Positions 8,695 to 16,960 of a stretch of 32,796 nucleotides of DNA are shown here, one piece after another. Numbering within the stretch: position 1 is the first letter of the stretch; each line of letters starts with the position of its first letter. Location: assembly GCA_902766695.1 (NCBI GenBank), contig CACXEY010000162.1:1-32796 (forward strand), given 5' to 3'. The notes beneath the pieces are model-generated. The model had not been told where the DNA came from and searched no databases. It saw only the letters and a list, made by a program, of their open reading frames with translations. Made by a program: the position numbers and the translations under genes. This stretch comes from an uncultured bacterium (lineage in GTDB: Bacteria > Verrucomicrobiota > Kiritimatiellia > CAIQIC01 > Lenti-01).

Positions 8695-9800
8695 GGCGCG
8701 GTCTCCGGGACGGTCTGGAGGAGGTGGACCATGGCCTTGGCATGGGCGGGCCAGGAGAAGACGGCGGCGCGGTCGAGGCCGCGGCGGATGCGGGCGGCGC
8801 GGGCGGCGGGGGACTCGGTCAGGAGGCGCCGCAGGGCGTCGGCGATGCCGGCGGGGGATTCGGGGTCGAAGGTCTCGGCGGCGCCGCCGGCGACTTCGGC
8901 GAGGGCGCCGTTGGCGGAGCAGGCGCAGGGGATGCCGCGGGACATGGCTTCCGCGAGGGAGATGCCGAAGCCTTCGAAGAGGCTCGGGAAGACGTAGAAG
9001 GCGGTGGACCGCCAGAGGTTTTCCATCGGGGGGCCGGGTTCGACGAAGCCGGTGAAGCGGATGAGCCCGGCGTGGGGGGATGCGGCGGCGGCGGCGCGGA
9101 CGACGCCGGCGTCTTTCCAGTCGGAGCCGGCGAGGACGAGGGGATGCCGTTCGGCCAGTTCGCGCGGGAGCATGCCGTAGGCTTTGATGAGGCGGACGTG
9201 ATTCTTGCCGGGGTGTTCGATGCGGGAGATGTAGAGGAGGTCGCGCGCGGCGGGGTCGGGGGCCCATCCGGGCGGGGGGACGGGGAAGCCTTCGTGGAGA
9301 ACGGTGACGTCGCCTTCGCGGCAGCCCCAGTGGCGGACCATGTCGTCGCGGGTGGAAGCGGAGACGGCGACGAGGCGTGTGGCGCGCCGGGCGTAGTGCG
9401 GGAGGACGTGCGCGAGGTAGAACATGCGGGAGGGGGAGTACTTGCCGGGGATGCGGAAGTTGGCGAGGTCGTGGACGACGGCGGCGGTCGGGAGGGGATA
9501 GGAGGCGCAGACGCGGCGGTTGGCGGCGCAGACGACCATGGCGTCGTGGTCGCGGCGGAGGGCGCGGAGTTTCCGCGGGAGGCAATAGAGGTGCCAGAGC
9601 ATGCTCAGGACGGGTTTCCGCGTCCAGCGGGGGGCGCGGAGGACGGGGAGTCCGGCGGCTTCGGGGATGTCGGCGCCGGGTTCGCAGAGGATGGTGAGGG
9701 CATGGCCCTGGCGGCGGAGTTCGGAGAGGAGTCCGCGGGTGTAGGCGGAGATGCCGCTCTTCCCGCCGTCCCAGGGGATGCAATCGAGGAGGATCCTCAT
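8691..9800 (-). CDS. GT4-type glycosyltransferase (group 1)
   Basis: 369 residues with the two Rossmann-like halves of the GT-B fold. The N-terminal half has a glycine-rich loop (DGGKSGISAYTRGL). The C-terminal half has the family's LLYISRIEHPGKNH, FTGFV, and the nucleotide-sugar binding EX7E region at FPSLFEGFGISLAEAMSRG. It probably acts in the cytoplasm on an exopolysaccharide or O-antigen repeat unit. The start at 9800 is chosen because its ATG overlaps the TGA of the preceding hybrid kinase (ATGA) and because MRILLDCIPWDGG is a natural beginning for this family. Coupling on both sides puts kinase, this gene and the GT26 gene on one mRNA. Confidence 0.93.
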   Translation of the reverse strand: MRILLDCIPWDGGKSGISAYTRGLLSELRRQGHALTILCEPGADIPEAAGLPVLRAPRWTRKPVLSMLWHLYCLPRKLRALRRDHDAMVVCAANRRVCASYPLPTAAVVHDLANFRIPGKYSPSRMFYLAHVLPHYARRATRLVAVSASTRDDMVRHWGCREGDVTVLHEGFPVPPPGWAPDPAARDLLYISRIEHPGKNHVRLIKAYGMLPRELAERHPLVLAGSDWKDAGVVRAAAAASPHAGLIRFTGFVEPGPPMENLWRSTAFYVFPSLFEGFGISLAEAMSRGIPCACSANGALAEVAGGAAETFDPESPAGIADALRRLLTESPAARAARIRRGLDRAAVFSWPAHAKAMVHLLQTVPETAP

Positions 9801-12800
9801 CGGGAGGCGAGCTCCGCGAAGAGGTCCGCGAGCTTGGCGCCCGTGACCGGCTTGGCGAGGACCTTCGCGAAATGGCGCGTGTCGTGCGTCGATTCGACTT
9901 CGACGTCGGCGGTGATGGCGACCAGGGGGATCGCCGCGAGCCGCGCGTCGCGCTGCATTTCCTCGGAGAACTGCTGGCCGTCCATTTCGGGCATCCACAT
10001 GTCGGTGAGCACGATGTCCGGCGTCCAGTCCGCCAGCGCTTCCAGGGCCTTGACGCCGTTTTCCGCGTAGCGGATTTCGCCGACGCCCAGCTTGCCGAGG
10101 TGGATGCCGAGGACCTTGCGGTTGATCGCGATGTCGTCGACCACCAGCACCGACTGCGGGATGCCGCGCGCCTTCGCGGGGGCGGCGGGCGGCGCCACCG
10201 GGACCGGCGCGGGGGCTTCGCCGCCGGCGGTCTCCAGTCCGGGGATCTCGATGGTGAACGTGGTGCCGTGCCCGAGGCGGCTCTGGACGGACACCGTGCC
10301 GCCCGCGCTGTCCACCAGCCGCTTGACGATGGGGAGCCCGAGCCCGGTGCCTTTGTTGCCGGCGGCCTGGTCGTGCATGCGCGAGGAGATGTCCTGCACG
10401 AAGGGGTCGAATAGCTTGGACATCTTCTCGTCGGAGATGCCGCATCCGGTGTCGCCCACCTCGATGTGGAGCAGCCCGCCCGCCGCCTGCCACCCGTACT
10501 GCACGGAAATCTTCCCGTCCCGGGTGAACTTCGCGGAGTTGCCGACGAGGTTGATGAGGATCTGGCGGAAGCCCTGGCGCGAGAGGCGGAGGGGCGGAAT
10601 CTCCCCCTCGCTCGTCTGGTGGACGGTCAACCCCACGCCGTTGCGCTCCAGCAGCTGGCCGAAGATCGCCGGCAGTTCGCCCGCCAGTTCGGGGACGTTG
10701 CACGTCCCGGCGCGCATGTTCATCGCGCCGGTTTCGAGCTTGGAGAGGTCGAGGATGTCGTTGATCAGGTCGAGCAGCGCGGTGGCGCTGGAGAGGATGC
10801 CCTGCACCCACTCGCGGCGCTTGGCCTCGACCCCGCCTTCCTGGGAGAGGAACTCGGCGAAGCCGATGACGGCGTTGAGCGGCGTGCGCAGCTCGTGGGA
10901 CATCATGGCGAGGAAGCGGGACTTGGCCATGGCGAGCTCGTGCGCCTGGTGGGCGGACGCCTGGGCGAGCTGCGCCTGCCGCTTGAGCAGGACGATGAGC
11001 GAAACCGCGTACACCAGCAGCAGCGCCCCGAACACCACCGCCGCGCTCGTCGCGTACTCCTTGAGCTGCTCGTCGGTCAGCCCGAAGAACGTCCGCTCGG
11101 CGAGCCGCCCCGCCGCCGCGGCCATGAACATCTCCTGCCACTGCTGCGAGGGGATGCTTTCCATGGTCTTGCGCAGGATGCCGGTGAGCTCGTTGGGCGT
11201 GGAGGCGTGGGTGAACATCACGAACTCGGTGCGGAAGTCCTCGGCCCCGTAGAGTTCGCTGCAACTCTGCGGCACGGGCAGCGAGAAGACGTCCAGCGCC
11301 CCGTACGCCGACGCGTCCGGCCGCTCCGGGTAGGGGATCCAGAAATCCGTGTCCCCGCGCATGAACTTCGCCTCGGCCGTCTGGATGCCGGTCTGCGGAG
11401 CGACCTCGAACTTGAGCCCCGTGTGGCGCGCGAGCTCCTCCAGCAGCGCCTTGGGCAGGCCCATGGGACGGCCCTTTTCGTCGCGCACGGGGAAGGGCCA
11501 CGGCGAGAAATCGATCACGATCGGCGCCGGGTCCTCCATGCGGCGTTCGAGCCATTCGGACTCCTGGAACGTCAGCTCGCTCATGTCGCTGTGGGCGCCG
11601 TAGTGCTTCTCGCTGATGAGGCGCATGTACTTCGGCGCGTCGTCGCACACCACGTCCAGCGCCTCCTCCAGGTCGCGGAACAGCTCCGGCTTGCCGTTCG
11701 CGCACACCAGGTACATCGGGTGCGACGCGTAGAGCCGCAACGCCCGCTCCCCGTCCAGCTCCTGCATCTCGATGTTGACGCACCCGTCCACCTCGCCCGA
11801 GAAGTACGCGTCCAGCAGCTCCCGGTTCGACGTGAACTCCCGCAGCTCCACCTCGTAGTGCCGCTCCTCCACGCGCTGCTTCACCCGCTGCGCGCTGAGG
11901 GACCCCGCCAGCAGGCCGATCTTCATCCCCTTCCACGTCTCCGGCCGCCCCGCCTGGTAGGGGCTGCCCGGGCGCGCCCAGAGGTAGATCCGGAGCATCC
12001 CGATCGGCGTGTGCGGGAACTCCATCGCCGCGCCGCGCGCCGGACTGAACCCCAGCCCGCCCACCAGGTCCAGGCGACCGGCCTTCACGTCGCCGACGCT
12101 CTGGTCGTAGTCGCCGTACACGTAGTCCGGCGTCCAGTGCGTGATGGCGCAGAGCGACCGGATCCAGTCCTCGATCAGCCCCGACCGCGCCCCGTCCGGC
12201 GACACATTGAACAAATCGCCGCGGCTGTAGGCCGCGATGCGCACGCGCTTCGCGGGCCGCTGGATGCCCAGCAGCTCCTCGCGCCAGTCGTCATAGCACT
12301 CGATGTTGTCGATGTACCACTCCCGGTAGGCCGCCGAGAGCCGCGCCATCAGTTCCGGGCGGTCCTTGCGCACGGCGAAATACACGTTGCGCATCCCGAT
12401 GGGCACGATTTCCTCGAGCCCCTCCGGACGCTTCCCGTACGGCGTGTAGAGGAACAGCGCATCCGCCTCCCCGGCCTTGAGCGCCTCGACCGCGCCCGCG
12501 CTCGTCGGGTACTCCACGTATTCCGGCTCCAGGTTCGCGTGGGCGAAATACCCCTCCCGGTCGGGGTTCATCCCCTGGGACACCGGCGAATAGGCGACCT
12601 TCATGCGCGGCCAGTCGGTGATCTTCATCGAAAGCATGAGCTCGGCCCGGTCGGGCGTCGCGTACAGCGCATAATGCATCCGGCCGAGCGGCTGGCGCGG
12701 GAAATCGTAATCCTCGAGGAGCTTCGGCGTGCGGAACGCCGAGCACACCACCTCCGCGTTCGAGACCACGAGCATCCCCTCCCCGTCGAACTCCGCCCTC

Positions 12801-13036
12801 ACCGGCTCCAGCCCGGCCCGTTGGAAAACCTCCCCCATGACCCTCCGGCAGAACTCCACGTCCGGCGCCGCCCACACGTCGACCTCCGAATTCCGCTCGC
12901 AGTCCGCCACCGACACCGTCTCGGCGCGCACCGCCCCCGCCGCCGCCCAGAGCGCCAGAAGCGCCACCGCGGCCGCACCCCGCAGTCCCCCCCGCGTCGT
13001 CCTTCCGGTCCCGGCACCTCTCCAATGACTGTTCAT
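9797..13036 (-). CDS. Hybrid sensor histidine kinase with periplasmic binding-protein-like sensor domains (copy 1)
   Basis: 1,079 residues. A signal peptide (about 1-39, ending AVRAET) is followed by about 620 periplasmic residues that look like three binding-protein-type (SBP_bac_3-like) modules, beginning roughly at 40, 265 and 505; the third looks short. One membrane helix lies at about 672-695. The cytoplasmic part has a HisKA domain with HELRTPLNAVIGFAEFL (phosphorylated His714), an ATPase domain (NLVGNSAKFT, DTGCGIS, GTGLGLPIVKRL) and a C-terminal receiver domain (LTDMWMPEMDG with Asp1012; Lys in LAKPV). No DNA-binding output or separate response regulator is visible nearby. It is a tandem paralogue of the gene at 13670-16960, with the same domain order and long shared stretches. 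It has its own promoter and is coupled to two glycosyltransferases. Confidence 0.93.
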   Translation of the reverse strand: MNSHWRGAGTGRTTRGGLRGAAAVALLALWAAAGAVRAETVSVADCERNSEVDVWAAPDVEFCRRVMGEVFQRAGLEPVRAEFDGEGMLVVSNAEVVCSAFRTPKLLEDYDFPRQPLGRMHYALYATPDRAELMLSMKITDWPRMKVAYSPVSQGMNPDREGYFAHANLEPEYVEYPTSAGAVEALKAGEADALFLYTPYGKRPEGLEEIVPIGMRNVYFAVRKDRPELMARLSAAYREWYIDNIECYDDWREELLGIQRPAKRVRIAAYSRGDLFNVSPDGARSGLIEDWIRSLCAITHWTPDYVYGDYDQSVGDVKAGRLDLVGGLGFSPARGAAMEFPHTPIGMLRIYLWARPGSPYQAGRPETWKGMKIGLLAGSLSAQRVKQRVEERHYEVELREFTSNRELLDAYFSGEVDGCVNIEMQELDGERALRLYASHPMYLVCANGKPELFRDLEEALDVVCDDAPKYMRLISEKHYGAHSDMSELTFQESEWLERRMEDPAPIVIDFSPWPFPVRDEKGRPMGLPKALLEELARHTGLKFEVAPQTGIQTAEAKFMRGDTDFWIPYPERPDASAYGALDVFSLPVPQSCSELYGAEDFRTEFVMFTHASTPNELTGILRKTMESIPSQQWQEMFMAAAAGRLAERTFFGLTDEQLKEYATSAAVVFGALLLVYAVSLIVLLKRQAQLAQASAHQAHELAMAKSRFLAMMSHELRTPLNAVIGFAEFLSQEGGVEAKRREWVQGILSSATALLDLINDILDLSKLETGAMNMRAGTCNVPELAGELPAIFGQLLERNGVGLTVHQTSEGEIPPLRLSRQGFRQILINLVGNSAKFTRDGKISVQYGWQAAGGLLHIEVGDTGCGISDEKMSKLFDPFVQDISSRMHDQAAGNKGTGLGLPIVKRLVDSAGGTVSVQSRLGHGTTFTIEIPGLETAGGEAPAPVPVAPPAAPAKARGIPQSVLVVDDIAINRKVLGIHLGKLGVGEIRYAENGVKALEALADWTPDIVLTDMWMPEMDGQQFSEEMQRDARLAAIPLVAITADVEVESTHDTRHFAKVLAKPVTGAKLADLFAELASR

Positions 13037-13120: not shown

Positions 13121-13189
13121 GCGGACGCGCGGAAGCGCGTCCCTCCCCATGGAGAGCGCAACGGGAGGGACGCGCTTCCGCGCGTCCGC
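13121..13189. repeat. 27-bp perfect inverted repeat (two head-to-head hairpin units)
   Basis: Bases 13121-13147 are the exact reverse complement of 13163-13189, with a 15-base spacer. Each arm is itself a small hairpin: an 8-bp stem GGACGCGC / GCGCGTCC around a TTCC loop, preceded by GGGAGG. It resembles a REP/BIME-like extragenic element and shares its skeleton with the units at 13205 and 13345. Confidence 0.85.
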
Positions 13190-13204
13190 AAACGTGCAAA
13201 GCCG

Positions 13205-13232
13205 GGTAGGGCGGCGAGTCCCCTCGCCGCCG
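13205..13232 (+). repeat. REP-like hairpin unit, stem variant 2
   Basis: GGTAGGG leads into the stem GGCGGCGAG (13210-13218), loop TCCC and stem CTCGCCGCC (13223-13231). The overall layout is the same as in the neighbouring units, but both stem arms differ together. Confidence 0.7.
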
Positions 13233-13344
13233 GAAACCGGAACGTGCAAGCAAATGTCGTTGGTGATGCGGATGCCATTCAGCCGGAACGCGGGGCAACA
13301 TGCGTCCGCACATTCCCGGCGCCGTCCTTCGGCATGACGGCCAC

Positions 13345-13372
13345 CGGCGGGCAGGGACTGCCCGCCCTACCC
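13345..13372 (-). repeat. REP-like hairpin unit, stem variant 3
   Basis: On the minus strand GGTAGGG leads into the stem GGCGGGCAG, loop TCC and stem CTGCCCGCC (13366-13346). Same skeleton as the unit at 13205, opposite orientation, with compensated stem changes. Confidence 0.7.
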
Positions 13373-13529
13373 ATTCTTGCACATGGGAAATCGCAAGGTT
13401 TTCACCTGACAACTCCATTCATCGACGGCCGCGCGCCGTACTCCCCCCGCCGCCCTTTTCCTTCCGCTCCGCATTCGCAATCCACAAGCCGTCTTCCCCT
13501 TCCATTCAAATTCCCGGCGGGCCAAAATA

Positions 13530-13631
13530 TTTTCCAATCATTGGAAAACCGCCGCAAATTTTTTCCAATCATTGGAAAATTCCGCCGATTTTTTCCAACC
13601 ATTGGAAAAAACTTTTCCAATCATTGGAAAA
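13530..13631. repeat. Four-copy array of a 19-bp palindrome (probable operator cluster)
   Basis: TTTTCCAATCATTGGAAAA is present at 13530-13548, 13561-13579 and 13613-13631, and with one change (AACC for AATC) at 13591-13609. Start-to-start distances are 31, 30 and 22 bases, close to 3, 3 and 2 turns of the DNA helix. Each copy is a near-perfect dyad with a single central base, too tight for an RNA hairpin loop but typical of a dimeric DNA-binding protein site. It lies between the two paralogous kinase genes, about 500 bp upstream of copy 1 and 39 bp beyond the stop of copy 2. No other copy was noticed in the window. Confidence 0.75.
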
Positions 13632-13669: not shown

Positions 13670-16600
13670 TCACCCTGCCAGGTCGCGGAACAGCGACTGC
13701 AGGCGGTGCGTCGTGACGGGCTTCGGGAGGATTTTCGCGAACCGCTTCACGCTGTGGGTGTTCTCGACCTCCACGTCGGCCGTGATGCCCACCAGCGGCA
13801 CCTTCGCCAGGCGCGGGTCGGCGGCCATCGCTTCGGCGAGCTGCTGGCCGTCCATTTCCGGCATCCACATGTCCGTGAGCACCAGGTCGGGCGTCCAGGA
13901 CTTCATTTCCGCGAGCGCCTTCACGCCGTTTTCGGCGAAGCGCACGTCCTTGACGCCGAGGTTCCAGAGATGGATGCCGAGGACCTTGCGGTTGACCGAG
14001 ATGTCGTCCACCACCAGCACCGCGCCCGGCGCCTTCACCTCGCCGGCGGCCGGCGCGCCCGCGGCCGGGCCGGCGGCCCCTACGGCCCCCGCCTCCGCTT
14101 CCGCCTGCTCCCCGGAGGGCTCCGCCACGCACAGCGACGGCAGCACCACCGTGAATTCCGTCCCCTTGCCGAGTTCGCTCTTGACCGAGATCGTCCCGCT
14201 GGCCGCCTCCACGAGCCGCTTCACGATGGGCAGTCCGAGGCCGGTGCCCTTCGTCTTCGCGTCCGCGCCCTCCATCCGCGACTGGATGTCCTGCACGAAC
14301 GGATCGAAGATCCGGTCCAGCTTTTCCTGCGAAATCCCGCATCCCGTGTCCCGCACGACCACGCGCAGGGTTCCCACCGCCGCCGACTCCGGTTTCCAGC
14401 CGTATTCCACCGTGATGGCCCCCTCCTTCGTGAACTTCGCGGCGTTCCCCACCAGGTTCAGCAGCACCTGGCGGAACCCCTGCCGCGAGAGCACGACCTC
14501 GGGCACCTCGCAATCCCCCGTCCGGTGGACCACGAGCTTGACCCCGACGCTCTCCGTCCGGTAGCCGAAGATCGACGGCAGTTCGCCCATCACCTTCGCC
14601 ACCGGGCACGTGCCCACGCGCATGCGCATCGCCCCGGTCTCCAGCTTCGAGAGGTCGAGCACGTCGTTGATCAGGTCCAGCAGGGCGGTCGCGCTCGCGA
14701 TGATGCCCTGGACGAACTCCTTGCGCTGCGTCTTCGGCAGGTTCCCGCGCGCGAGGAACTCGGCGAAGCCGATGACGGCGTTCAGCGGCGTCCGCAGCTC
14801 GTGGGACATCATCGCGAGGAAGCGGGTCTTGGCCTGGGCGGAATCCTCGGCGCGCTCGGCGGCGGCTTCCGCGCGCTGGGCGTGGCGCTTGAGCATCACC
14901 AGCATCACCGACCCGTAGAGCGTGACGAGCGCGAAAATCCCCAGCGCCGCCAGCGTCCCGTACTTCGCCAGCTCATCGTCCGTGAGCCCGAGGAAGTGCC
15001 GTTCCGCGTTCAGCTCCGCCAGATCCTCCAGCATCATTTCCTGGAGATTCTCGATGGAAATCGCCTCGAACCCCTTGCGCAGGATGGACACCAGCGCGTC
15101 CGGCGTCCCCGGCTGCGCGAGCAGCACGAATTCCGCCTGCCGGTCCGCCGCCCCGTACGCCTCCGCGCAGTGCTCCGGCACCGGGAACGAGAACACCCGC
15201 ACCGCCTCGTACTCCTCCGGGTCCAGCGGATACGGCGCCCAGAGCTGGGTCTCCCCGCGCAGGAACTTCGCCTCCGCCGTCCGCGCCTCCGACTGCACCG
15301 CCTGGGCGAGCGGCAGTCCCGTCCGGCGCGACAGCTTCTTGAGCAGCGCCGAGGGGAACCCCACCGGCGAGCCGTGTTCGTCCTTCATCGGGAACGGCCA
15401 CGGCGAGAAATCGACCACGACCGGCAGCGGATTCTTCAGCCGCCGCTCCAGCCACTGCGTCTCCGCGGCGCTCAGGTCGCCCATTCCGCCGCGCGCCCCG
15501 TAGTGGCGCTCTGCGATCAGGCGCATGTAGCGCGGGTGGTCGTCGCAGATCGCGTCGATCGTCCGCTCCAGCTCGGCGAAGCGCTCCGGGCGGCTGCGCG
15601 GGCAGACGAAATACATCTGGTAGGCGTCGCAGAGCCGCAGCGTGCGCCCCTCGGCCAGCTCCCGCATTCCCAGGTTCACGCACGCGTCGATGGCGCCCTC
15701 GGCGTAGGCCGCCATCATGTCCTGCTCCCGCTCGAACTCCACCACGTCGATGTCCAGGCCGCTCTCCTGCACCCGTTCCTGCATCCGGCGCCCGCTGTTG
15801 GTCCCCGCCAGCACCCCCACCTTCATTCCGCCCCAGGTCTCCGGATGGCCGGCCTTGTAGGGGGTGTTCCGGCGGGTCCACAGGTACACGCGCCCCATCC
15901 CGCACGCCGAGTGCGGATACAGGAACTCCTCCCGCCGCTCCGGCGTGACGGTCACGCCGCCCATCAGGTCCAGCCGCCCGTTCCGCACGTCCTCCAGGGA
16001 CTGCTCGAAGGACCCGTACACGTAGTCGGGCGTCCAGTGCGCCACGTCGCAGAGCGCCCGGAGCCAGTCCTCCAGCCGCCCGCTCCGCTTGCCGTCCGGC
16101 GAGAGGCGGAAGAGGTCCGCGCGCTCGTAGGCGGCGATCCGCACCCGGTTTTCCGGGGTCGGGATGCCCAGCAGCTCCTCCCGCCAGCGGTCGTAGCGGT
16201 CGATGTGGTCGATGTACCACTCCCGGTAGGCCGCCGAGAGCCGCTCCAGCAGCTCCGGGCGGTCCTTGCGCACCGCGAAATACACGTTGCGGGTTCCGAT
16301 CGGCACGATTTCCGCGAGGCCTTCCGGGCGCTTTCCGTGGGGGGTGTAGAGGAACAGCGCATCCACCTCCCCGGCCTTCAGCGCCTCGACCGCCCCCGCG
16401 CTCGTCGGGTACTCCACGTATTGCGGGTTCATCCCCGCGCGTTCGAAATAGCGCAGGCGGTCCCCGTTGCCGCGCTGCCCCTGCGACACCGGCGAATACG
16501 CCACCCGCGGACGCATCCCCTCCGGCAGCTTCGCCCCGAACAGCTTCGACGCCCGCTTCTGCGTCATGTACACCCCGTAATGCATCCGCCCCATCGGCTG

Positions 16601-16960
16601 CTGCGGGAAATCGTAGTCCTCCAGCAGCTTCTCCGTCCGGAACGCCGAGCAGACCACCTCCGCGTTCGAGACCACGAGCATCCCGTCCGCGTCGAACTCC
16701 GCCCGCACCGGCTCCACCCCGGCCAGGGCGAACACCTCGTCCATGACCCGGCGGCAGAACTGCACGTCCGCCGCCGCCCAGTAATCCACCGCCGAATCCC
16801 GCTCGCAGTCCGCCACCGCCACCGTCTCCGCGCGAGCCGGGAGGCCCGCCGTCCAGGGCAGCGGCAGGAGCAGCAGCAGCGGCAGCAAGCGCCGCGCCGC
16901 GGGAAAACGTCGCGCCGGCCGTGCCATTCCGCGCGTCCGTTCGGGATCCGTTCCGGTCAT
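13670..16960 (-). CDS. Hybrid sensor histidine kinase with periplasmic binding-protein-like sensor domains (copy 2)
   Basis: 1,096 residues with the same plan as copy 1: signal peptide (about 12-43, ending LPARAET), a long periplasmic part with three binding-protein-like modules, one membrane helix near 675-697, a coiled stretch rich in Ala/Glu/Arg, HisKA with HELRTPLNAVIGFAEFL (His720), ATPase domain (NLVGNAAKFT, DTGCGIS, GTGLGLPIVKRL) and a receiver domain (LTDMWMPEMDG, Asp1030; KPV). Shared blocks with copy 1 include VVSNAEVVCSAFRT, VEYPTSAGAVEALKAGE and FSPWPFP, so they arose by tandem duplication and then diverged in the sensor. The start at 16960 has AAGG about 10 bases upstream; an internal ATG at 16927 would also keep the signal peptide. 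It follows the STAS gene by 28 bases. Confidence 0.93.
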   Translation of the reverse strand: MTGTDPERTRGMARPARRFPAARRLLPLLLLLPLPWTAGLPARAETVAVADCERDSAVDYWAAADVQFCRRVMDEVFALAGVEPVRAEFDADGMLVVSNAEVVCSAFRTEKLLEDYDFPQQPMGRMHYGVYMTQKRASKLFGAKLPEGMRPRVAYSPVSQGQRGNGDRLRYFERAGMNPQYVEYPTSAGAVEALKAGEVDALFLYTPHGKRPEGLAEIVPIGTRNVYFAVRKDRPELLERLSAAYREWYIDHIDRYDRWREELLGIPTPENRVRIAAYERADLFRLSPDGKRSGRLEDWLRALCDVAHWTPDYVYGSFEQSLEDVRNGRLDLMGGVTVTPERREEFLYPHSACGMGRVYLWTRRNTPYKAGHPETWGGMKVGVLAGTNSGRRMQERVQESGLDIDVVEFEREQDMMAAYAEGAIDACVNLGMRELAEGRTLRLCDAYQMYFVCPRSRPERFAELERTIDAICDDHPRYMRLIAERHYGARGGMGDLSAAETQWLERRLKNPLPVVVDFSPWPFPMKDEHGSPVGFPSALLKKLSRRTGLPLAQAVQSEARTAEAKFLRGETQLWAPYPLDPEEYEAVRVFSFPVPEHCAEAYGAADRQAEFVLLAQPGTPDALVSILRKGFEAISIENLQEMMLEDLAELNAERHFLGLTDDELAKYGTLAALGIFALVTLYGSVMLVMLKRHAQRAEAAAERAEDSAQAKTRFLAMMSHELRTPLNAVIGFAEFLARGNLPKTQRKEFVQGIIASATALLDLINDVLDLSKLETGAMRMRVGTCPVAKVMGELPSIFGYRTESVGVKLVVHRTGDCEVPEVVLSRQGFRQVLLNLVGNAAKFTKEGAITVEYGWKPESAAVGTLRVVVRDTGCGISQEKLDRIFDPFVQDIQSRMEGADAKTKGTGLGLPIVKRLVEAASGTISVKSELGKGTEFTVVLPSLCVAEPSGEQAEAEAGAVGAAGPAAGAPAAGEVKAPGAVLVVDDISVNRKVLGIHLWNLGVKDVRFAENGVKALAEMKSWTPDLVLTDMWMPEMDGQQLAEAMAADPRLAKVPLVGITADVEVENTHSVKRFAKILPKPVTTHRLQSLFRDLAG

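Follow-up and report, generated by a model that had tools for sequence, protein, structure and literature searches.

Why four near-identical palindromes stand in a row between two kinase genes of the same domain composition is the question raised by this locus. In the window, by which we mean the whole stretch of 32,796 nucleotides analysed, kinase copy 2 (13670-16960) and kinase copy 1 (9797-13036), both on the reverse strand, encode hybrid kinases with receiver domains (SBP_bac_3, HisKA, HATPase_c and Response_reg in each), and the array is separated by 38 bp from the stop codon of copy 2, on its downstream side, and by about 494 bp from the predicted start of copy 1 (13036), on its upstream side. 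Read on the forward strand, TTTTCCAATCATTGGAAAA occurs exactly at 13530-13548 (unit 1), 13561-13579 (unit 2) and 13613-13631 (unit 4), while the third unit in order (13591-13609), TTTTCCAACCATTGGAAAA, is a single-base variant with the centre ACCAT. The starts follow each other at 31, 30 and 22 bp, which confirms the positions and spacings given in a preliminary description of three exact palindromes and one with a single change. The units are separated by a 12-nt linker of the '31' type (CCGCCGCAAATT, 13549-13560), which is lost in the sister species G001, an 11-nt linker of the '30' type (TTCCGCCGATT, 13580-13590) and the 3-nt linker AAC of the '22' type (13610-13612). Each unit is a near-perfect palindrome of 8 bp, 3 nt and 8 bp, of which only TTTTCCA-N5-TGGAAAA is nearly constant across relatives. 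A scan of the window found no further copy outside 13530-13631, and 100 dinucleotide shuffles gave 0 matches.

The palindrome is abundant in the genome from which the window derives (G000; Kiritimatiellae, rumen; 3.04 Mb in 318 contigs), where 411 forward sites with at most two mismatches are found against 0 for the reversed control, and where a 116-bp query retrieves 109 matching pieces. The genome-wide count and gene positions that the preliminary description had proposed as a check thus come to about 410 sites, grouped in roughly 100 arrays and in every gene context. Random scatter, coding regions included, with no spacing preference had been named there as the pattern that would speak against a functional array; the sites are indeed scattered and partly coding, but their spacing preference is extreme. 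In the 73 clusters parsed from the window and 60 fetched stretches of G000, mostly of 4-6 units each, the intervals between sites are 22 bp (103 times), 30 bp (64 times) and 31 bp (64 times), with about 16 others. The order is stereotyped as ATCAT -31- ATCAT -30- ACCAT -22- ATCAT, plus added ACCAT-22-ATCAT pairs; the ACCAT-centre variant usually occupies the place that it has as unit 3 of the window, whose array is the plain four-unit form of this genome-wide grammar. Distances from TCRTT to TCRTT are mostly 31, 52 and 83 bp, corresponding to 2.95, 4.95 and 7.9 helical turns, and the linkers are variable yet loosely patterned. At eight loci (L037, L053, L058, L070, L074, L075, L081, L086) the array, mostly of four units, is followed by a common motif like GGCGAGCYAGCRGATTGTGCAAAACCCC and often preceded by GAAAATT.

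With respect to gene context, gene calls by a model trained on the clear genes of the window place 37 of the G000 clusters between co-directional, 13 between divergent and 7 between convergent genes, with 3 of 71 inside and 3 of 71 partly inside genes and 8 at stretch ends. The arrays hold no consistent position relative to promoters in G000; of the 35 co-directional arrays, 18 follow the upstream stop codon by no more than 60 bp and 7 precede the downstream start by no more than that distance. In family f20, 20 of 42 arrays fall within reading frames. Several arrays are translated in frame near the amino terminus of the gene product, often immediately ahead of a stretch that resembles a signal peptide by eye. 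At such gene starts (L035, L044, L046, L062, L076, L204, L202, L206, L172) the start codon is located upstream of or inside a palindrome, and the sequence after the array appears signal-peptide-like, prepilin-like or HypE-like (L206), again by eye. Clustering of the ORFs near arrays in 14 genomes yielded no convincing gene recurring across families, and a conserved target gene was dropped as a candidate. A gene resembling DUF2851 by eye carries, in the same coding region in G102, G104, G105 and G108 (L286, L296, L270, L285), palindrome pairs that vary from species to species, the 32-bp spacing being retained in two of them.

A survey of 346 genomes of the class for the 19-mer, allowing up to one mismatch, detected it in 66, with counts up to about 400 and a control of 0. 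The occurrence is patchy, as most genomes of the class are without sites and the range within one genus extends from 0 to more than 70. Seven families display helical spacings, of 31-33 bp, of 22 and 31 bp, or of 22/31/42/52/62/82/94/105 bp. Families f3 and f4 use 31 or 31/32 bp, G048 (f12) 32/33 bp, and G286 (f28) and G292 (f29) 31 bp, while G007 of genus g4 combines the 22- and 31-bp spacings of the window with a different centre, TTTTCCACTCATTGGAAAA, such that the geometry was kept while the sequence changed. The four species of f20 have the widest repertoire (22, 30-32, 40-42, 52, 59-63, 75, 82, 92-95, 105, 115 and 125 bp). After clustering of related loci, 55 f20 spacings give a Rayleigh R of 0.85 at 10.5 bp, with loci chosen for having a site and the spacing to the neighbour standing outside that choice. 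The 30 spacings outside 30-32 bp still give R 0.78, with a best period of 10.40 bp, and 0 of 20,000 uniform draws were equally good. Linkers of equal length are 0.29-0.38 identical as compared to 0.25-0.27 by composition, and spacing is therefore quantised near 10.5 bp independently of linker sequence, as is characteristic of a cooperative array. Nearly unrelated linkers together with whole-turn spacings are explained by assembly on one face of the DNA and not by copying of one element. The earlier suggestion that one protein has its sites on one DNA face is, as far as a sequence comparison of seven families can speak, supported.

Cumulatively, we give odds of roughly two to one to the reading that the four palindromes form a group of sites bound by a single cooperative DNA-binding protein acting genome-wide, and not the operator of a single operon. 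The putative protein is probably a dimer with 7-bp half-sites, which would read TTTTCCA and TGGAAAA over a 5-bp centre; dimers on adjacent palindromes, offset by two or three helical turns, would lie on one side of the double helix and touch one another. The approximately 100 arrays per genome with no fixed relation to promoters could then be high-affinity loading or anchoring points, and the bound protein a chromosome-structuring (nucleoid-type) protein or a global regulator, while in the genus of the window recombination may also shuffle the arrays as mosaic repeats. Judged from the sequences, the occurrence of arrays in all gene contexts, their presence inside genes in f20 and the lack of recurring target genes favour a chromosome-wide or global role over a local one. 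Several observations count against the proposed protein: the patchy distribution would not be expected of an essential nucleoid protein, the excess near stop codons (18 of 35) with the fixed unit order is BIME-like, and phasing is absent from G091 (f19), where the sample is small (seven). A broader proposal, which we put forward tentatively, is that Kiritimatiellae possess a chromosome-organising protein that assembles on phased arrays spread over the chromosome, with the arrays being tolerated even inside genes, spreading like mosaic repeats and marking synteny breakpoints.

The sister species G001, the sheep-rumen Kiritimatiellae MAG RGIG6649, whose orthologues are on average 93% (mostly 95-99%) identical to those of G000, shares the fixed unit grammar and permits the constraint on the arrays to be assessed. 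Where one alignment spans a G000 array, G001 has an array at the same place in 10 of 10 cases, sometimes with one extra 31-bp unit. Other G000 arrays are located where synteny is lost, or the array is missing beside the same flank in G001. Breakpoints of this kind coincide with arrays at L054/L092, L056/L094, L043/L104, L085/L110, L059 and L087; as G000 and G001 are both drafts, assembly error may account for part of these differences. For six orthologous arrays that have homologous sequence on either side (L032, L035, L042, L057, L047, L079), changed positions amount to 6/434 in arms, 3/155 in centres, 17/176 in linkers and 24/720 in flanks. The arms are thus slowest, while linkers change faster than flanks and still keep their length, length changes being exclusively 31-bp indels. 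Among the arm pairs of 312 G000 sites, 75 changes are one-sided and none is compensatory; 93 sites of other genera contain three compensatory cases. The absence of compensatory arm changes in G000 indicates that the constraint is on the duplex sequence and not on a hairpin: a hairpin function would permit such changes and a sequence-reading protein would not. Ectopic gene conversion could alternatively cause the likeness of the arms.

At the window locus itself, the comparison of the intergenic region that the preliminary description had proposed shows one palindrome and a half retained in G001. A deletion with its junction at CCATT has removed roughly window positions 13424-13600, and unit 4 is the sole complete unit, its centre and outer base being altered there. 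At this G001 locus (L144, 5754-9787), kinase copy 1 has its full length (1079/1079 amino acids, 96.9%), while copy 2 is broken and persists only as a C-terminal fragment of 91 amino acids and a 29-amino-acid piece. A full-length copy 1 in a species that has lost most of the array means that copy 1 does not in general need the window array.

A dimer assembling on phased sites is not the sole reading of this pattern. The arrays might descend from a (formerly) mobile palindromic mosaic repeat of the REP/BIME, REPIN or Rickettsia palindromic element kind, devoid of host function, the spacing of which would be inherited from the copied unit. The arrays of the window's genus do behave like mosaic interspersed repeats, as whole units are gained and lost and arrays coincide with synteny breakpoints or are absent beside the same flank in G001. 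High copy number, the unit grammar fixed in G000 and G001, in-frame arrays inside genes and the patchy occurrence in the class fit the same explanation. On the other hand, the nearly unrelated linkers and whole-turn spacings of the other families are unlike copying, no GTAG head is present and no clean pair of filled and empty sites was found. Nor does the Y1 transposase PF01797 follow the distribution of the palindrome: G007 has sites and 0 matches and genera g3 and g5 have many matches and 0 sites, some of these genomes being incomplete, and matches in G000 and G001 are weak. This distribution speaks against a RAYT-borne REP. We regard a mobile repeat with no host function as unlikely, though deserving of some weight.

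Considerably less probable are RNA hairpins acting as transcription terminators or as stabilisers of mRNA 3' ends, at this locus for kinase copy 2. Such a role would agree with the location of the array 38 bp past the stop codon, with the strong RNA fold (z -7.5) and with the 18 of 35 co-directional arrays close behind an upstream stop codon. Good folding is, however, expected of any palindrome, helical spacing is meaningless in RNA, 13 arrays lie between divergent genes and 20 of 42 f20 arrays inside reading frames, and in G000 compensatory changes are 0 against 75 one-sided ones. A search of Rfam families gave no match above the curated threshold, only chance-like matches below it. As the conserved property, a hairpin or terminator was rejected on the absence of compensatory changes in G000/G001.

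The preliminary description had proposed that the array could control kinase copy 1 together with its glycosyltransferases. The intergenic position upstream of copy 1 and palindromes sharing one DNA face would fit such an operator, but it is already strongly disfavoured and left with a very small chance, as about 100 arrays lie across the genome in all gene contexts, the families share no recurring target gene and most of the window array is deleted in G001, the species on which a local operator was rejected.

A putative binding-site grammar in units of the helical repeat extends over several families of a little-studied class, with up to hundreds of occurrences per genome, and the putative protein could be fished with one oligonucleotide. 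Such a protein would reveal a new system of nucleoid organisation or global regulation, or else a host factor that preserves the form of an interspersed repeat family, the latter being a long-standing question for BIME-like repeats. An origin from viruses, phages or plasmids was rejected, as the paired-site pattern has 0 occurrences in IMG/VR, the single 19-mer occurs in 2 viral contigs and phages and plasmids gave 0. In the literature on palindromic repeats in Kiritimatiellae, searched mostly outside subscription journals, no paper describing the arrays was found.

Among known systems, the sites of Noc and SlmA are tens to hundreds of short palindromes within and between genes that are bound by dimers, and the arrays resemble them in being dispersed short palindromes in and between genes; to our knowledge, arrays phased at two and three turns are not the rule for either protein. 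Multi-site operators with helical phasing have dimers that bind cooperatively along one face of the DNA, whole turns apart, whereas here about 100 arrays per genome take no consistent position relative to promoters. Rickettsia palindromic elements are single elements of about 100-150 bp located mostly in frame within protein genes (PMC10969869). Translation of palindromic repeats in frame inside genes is common to both, but the present arrays fall outside that class, being 19-bp units in phased multi-unit arrays that are mainly intergenic in G000.

REP/BIME repeats and REPINs are short, mostly intergenic palindromes that number more than 100 in a genome and are grouped with few linker lengths (PMC2817692, PMC3116915). 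The arrays share with them the more than 100 palindromes per genome, composite structures and regular spacing, as well as a unit number that varies by site. A classical REP doublet/REPIN is actually present in the window at 13193-13419. This dispersed repeat, distinct from the arrays, measures about 227 bp, has more than 30 copies in G001 (identity about 77-94%) and consists of two inward palindromes with outward GTAG heads, GTAGGGCGGCGAGTCCCCTCGCCGCC and GTAGGGCGGGCAGTCCCTGCCCGCC; repeats of this type are often found near TTTTCCA arrays. Next to it, at 13121-13189, a perfect 27-bp inverted repeat with a 15-nt loop is likewise repeated through the G001 genome. In contrast to the GTAG-headed doublet beside them, the arrays are headless, as their flanks are without a 5' GTAG (or GTGG/TGTG). 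In nearly all of them, centres and linkers show the units to run head-to-tail, whereas those of BIMEs alternate, and the arrays are further set apart by helical quantisation, by unrelated linkers and by the same palindrome recurring over several families.
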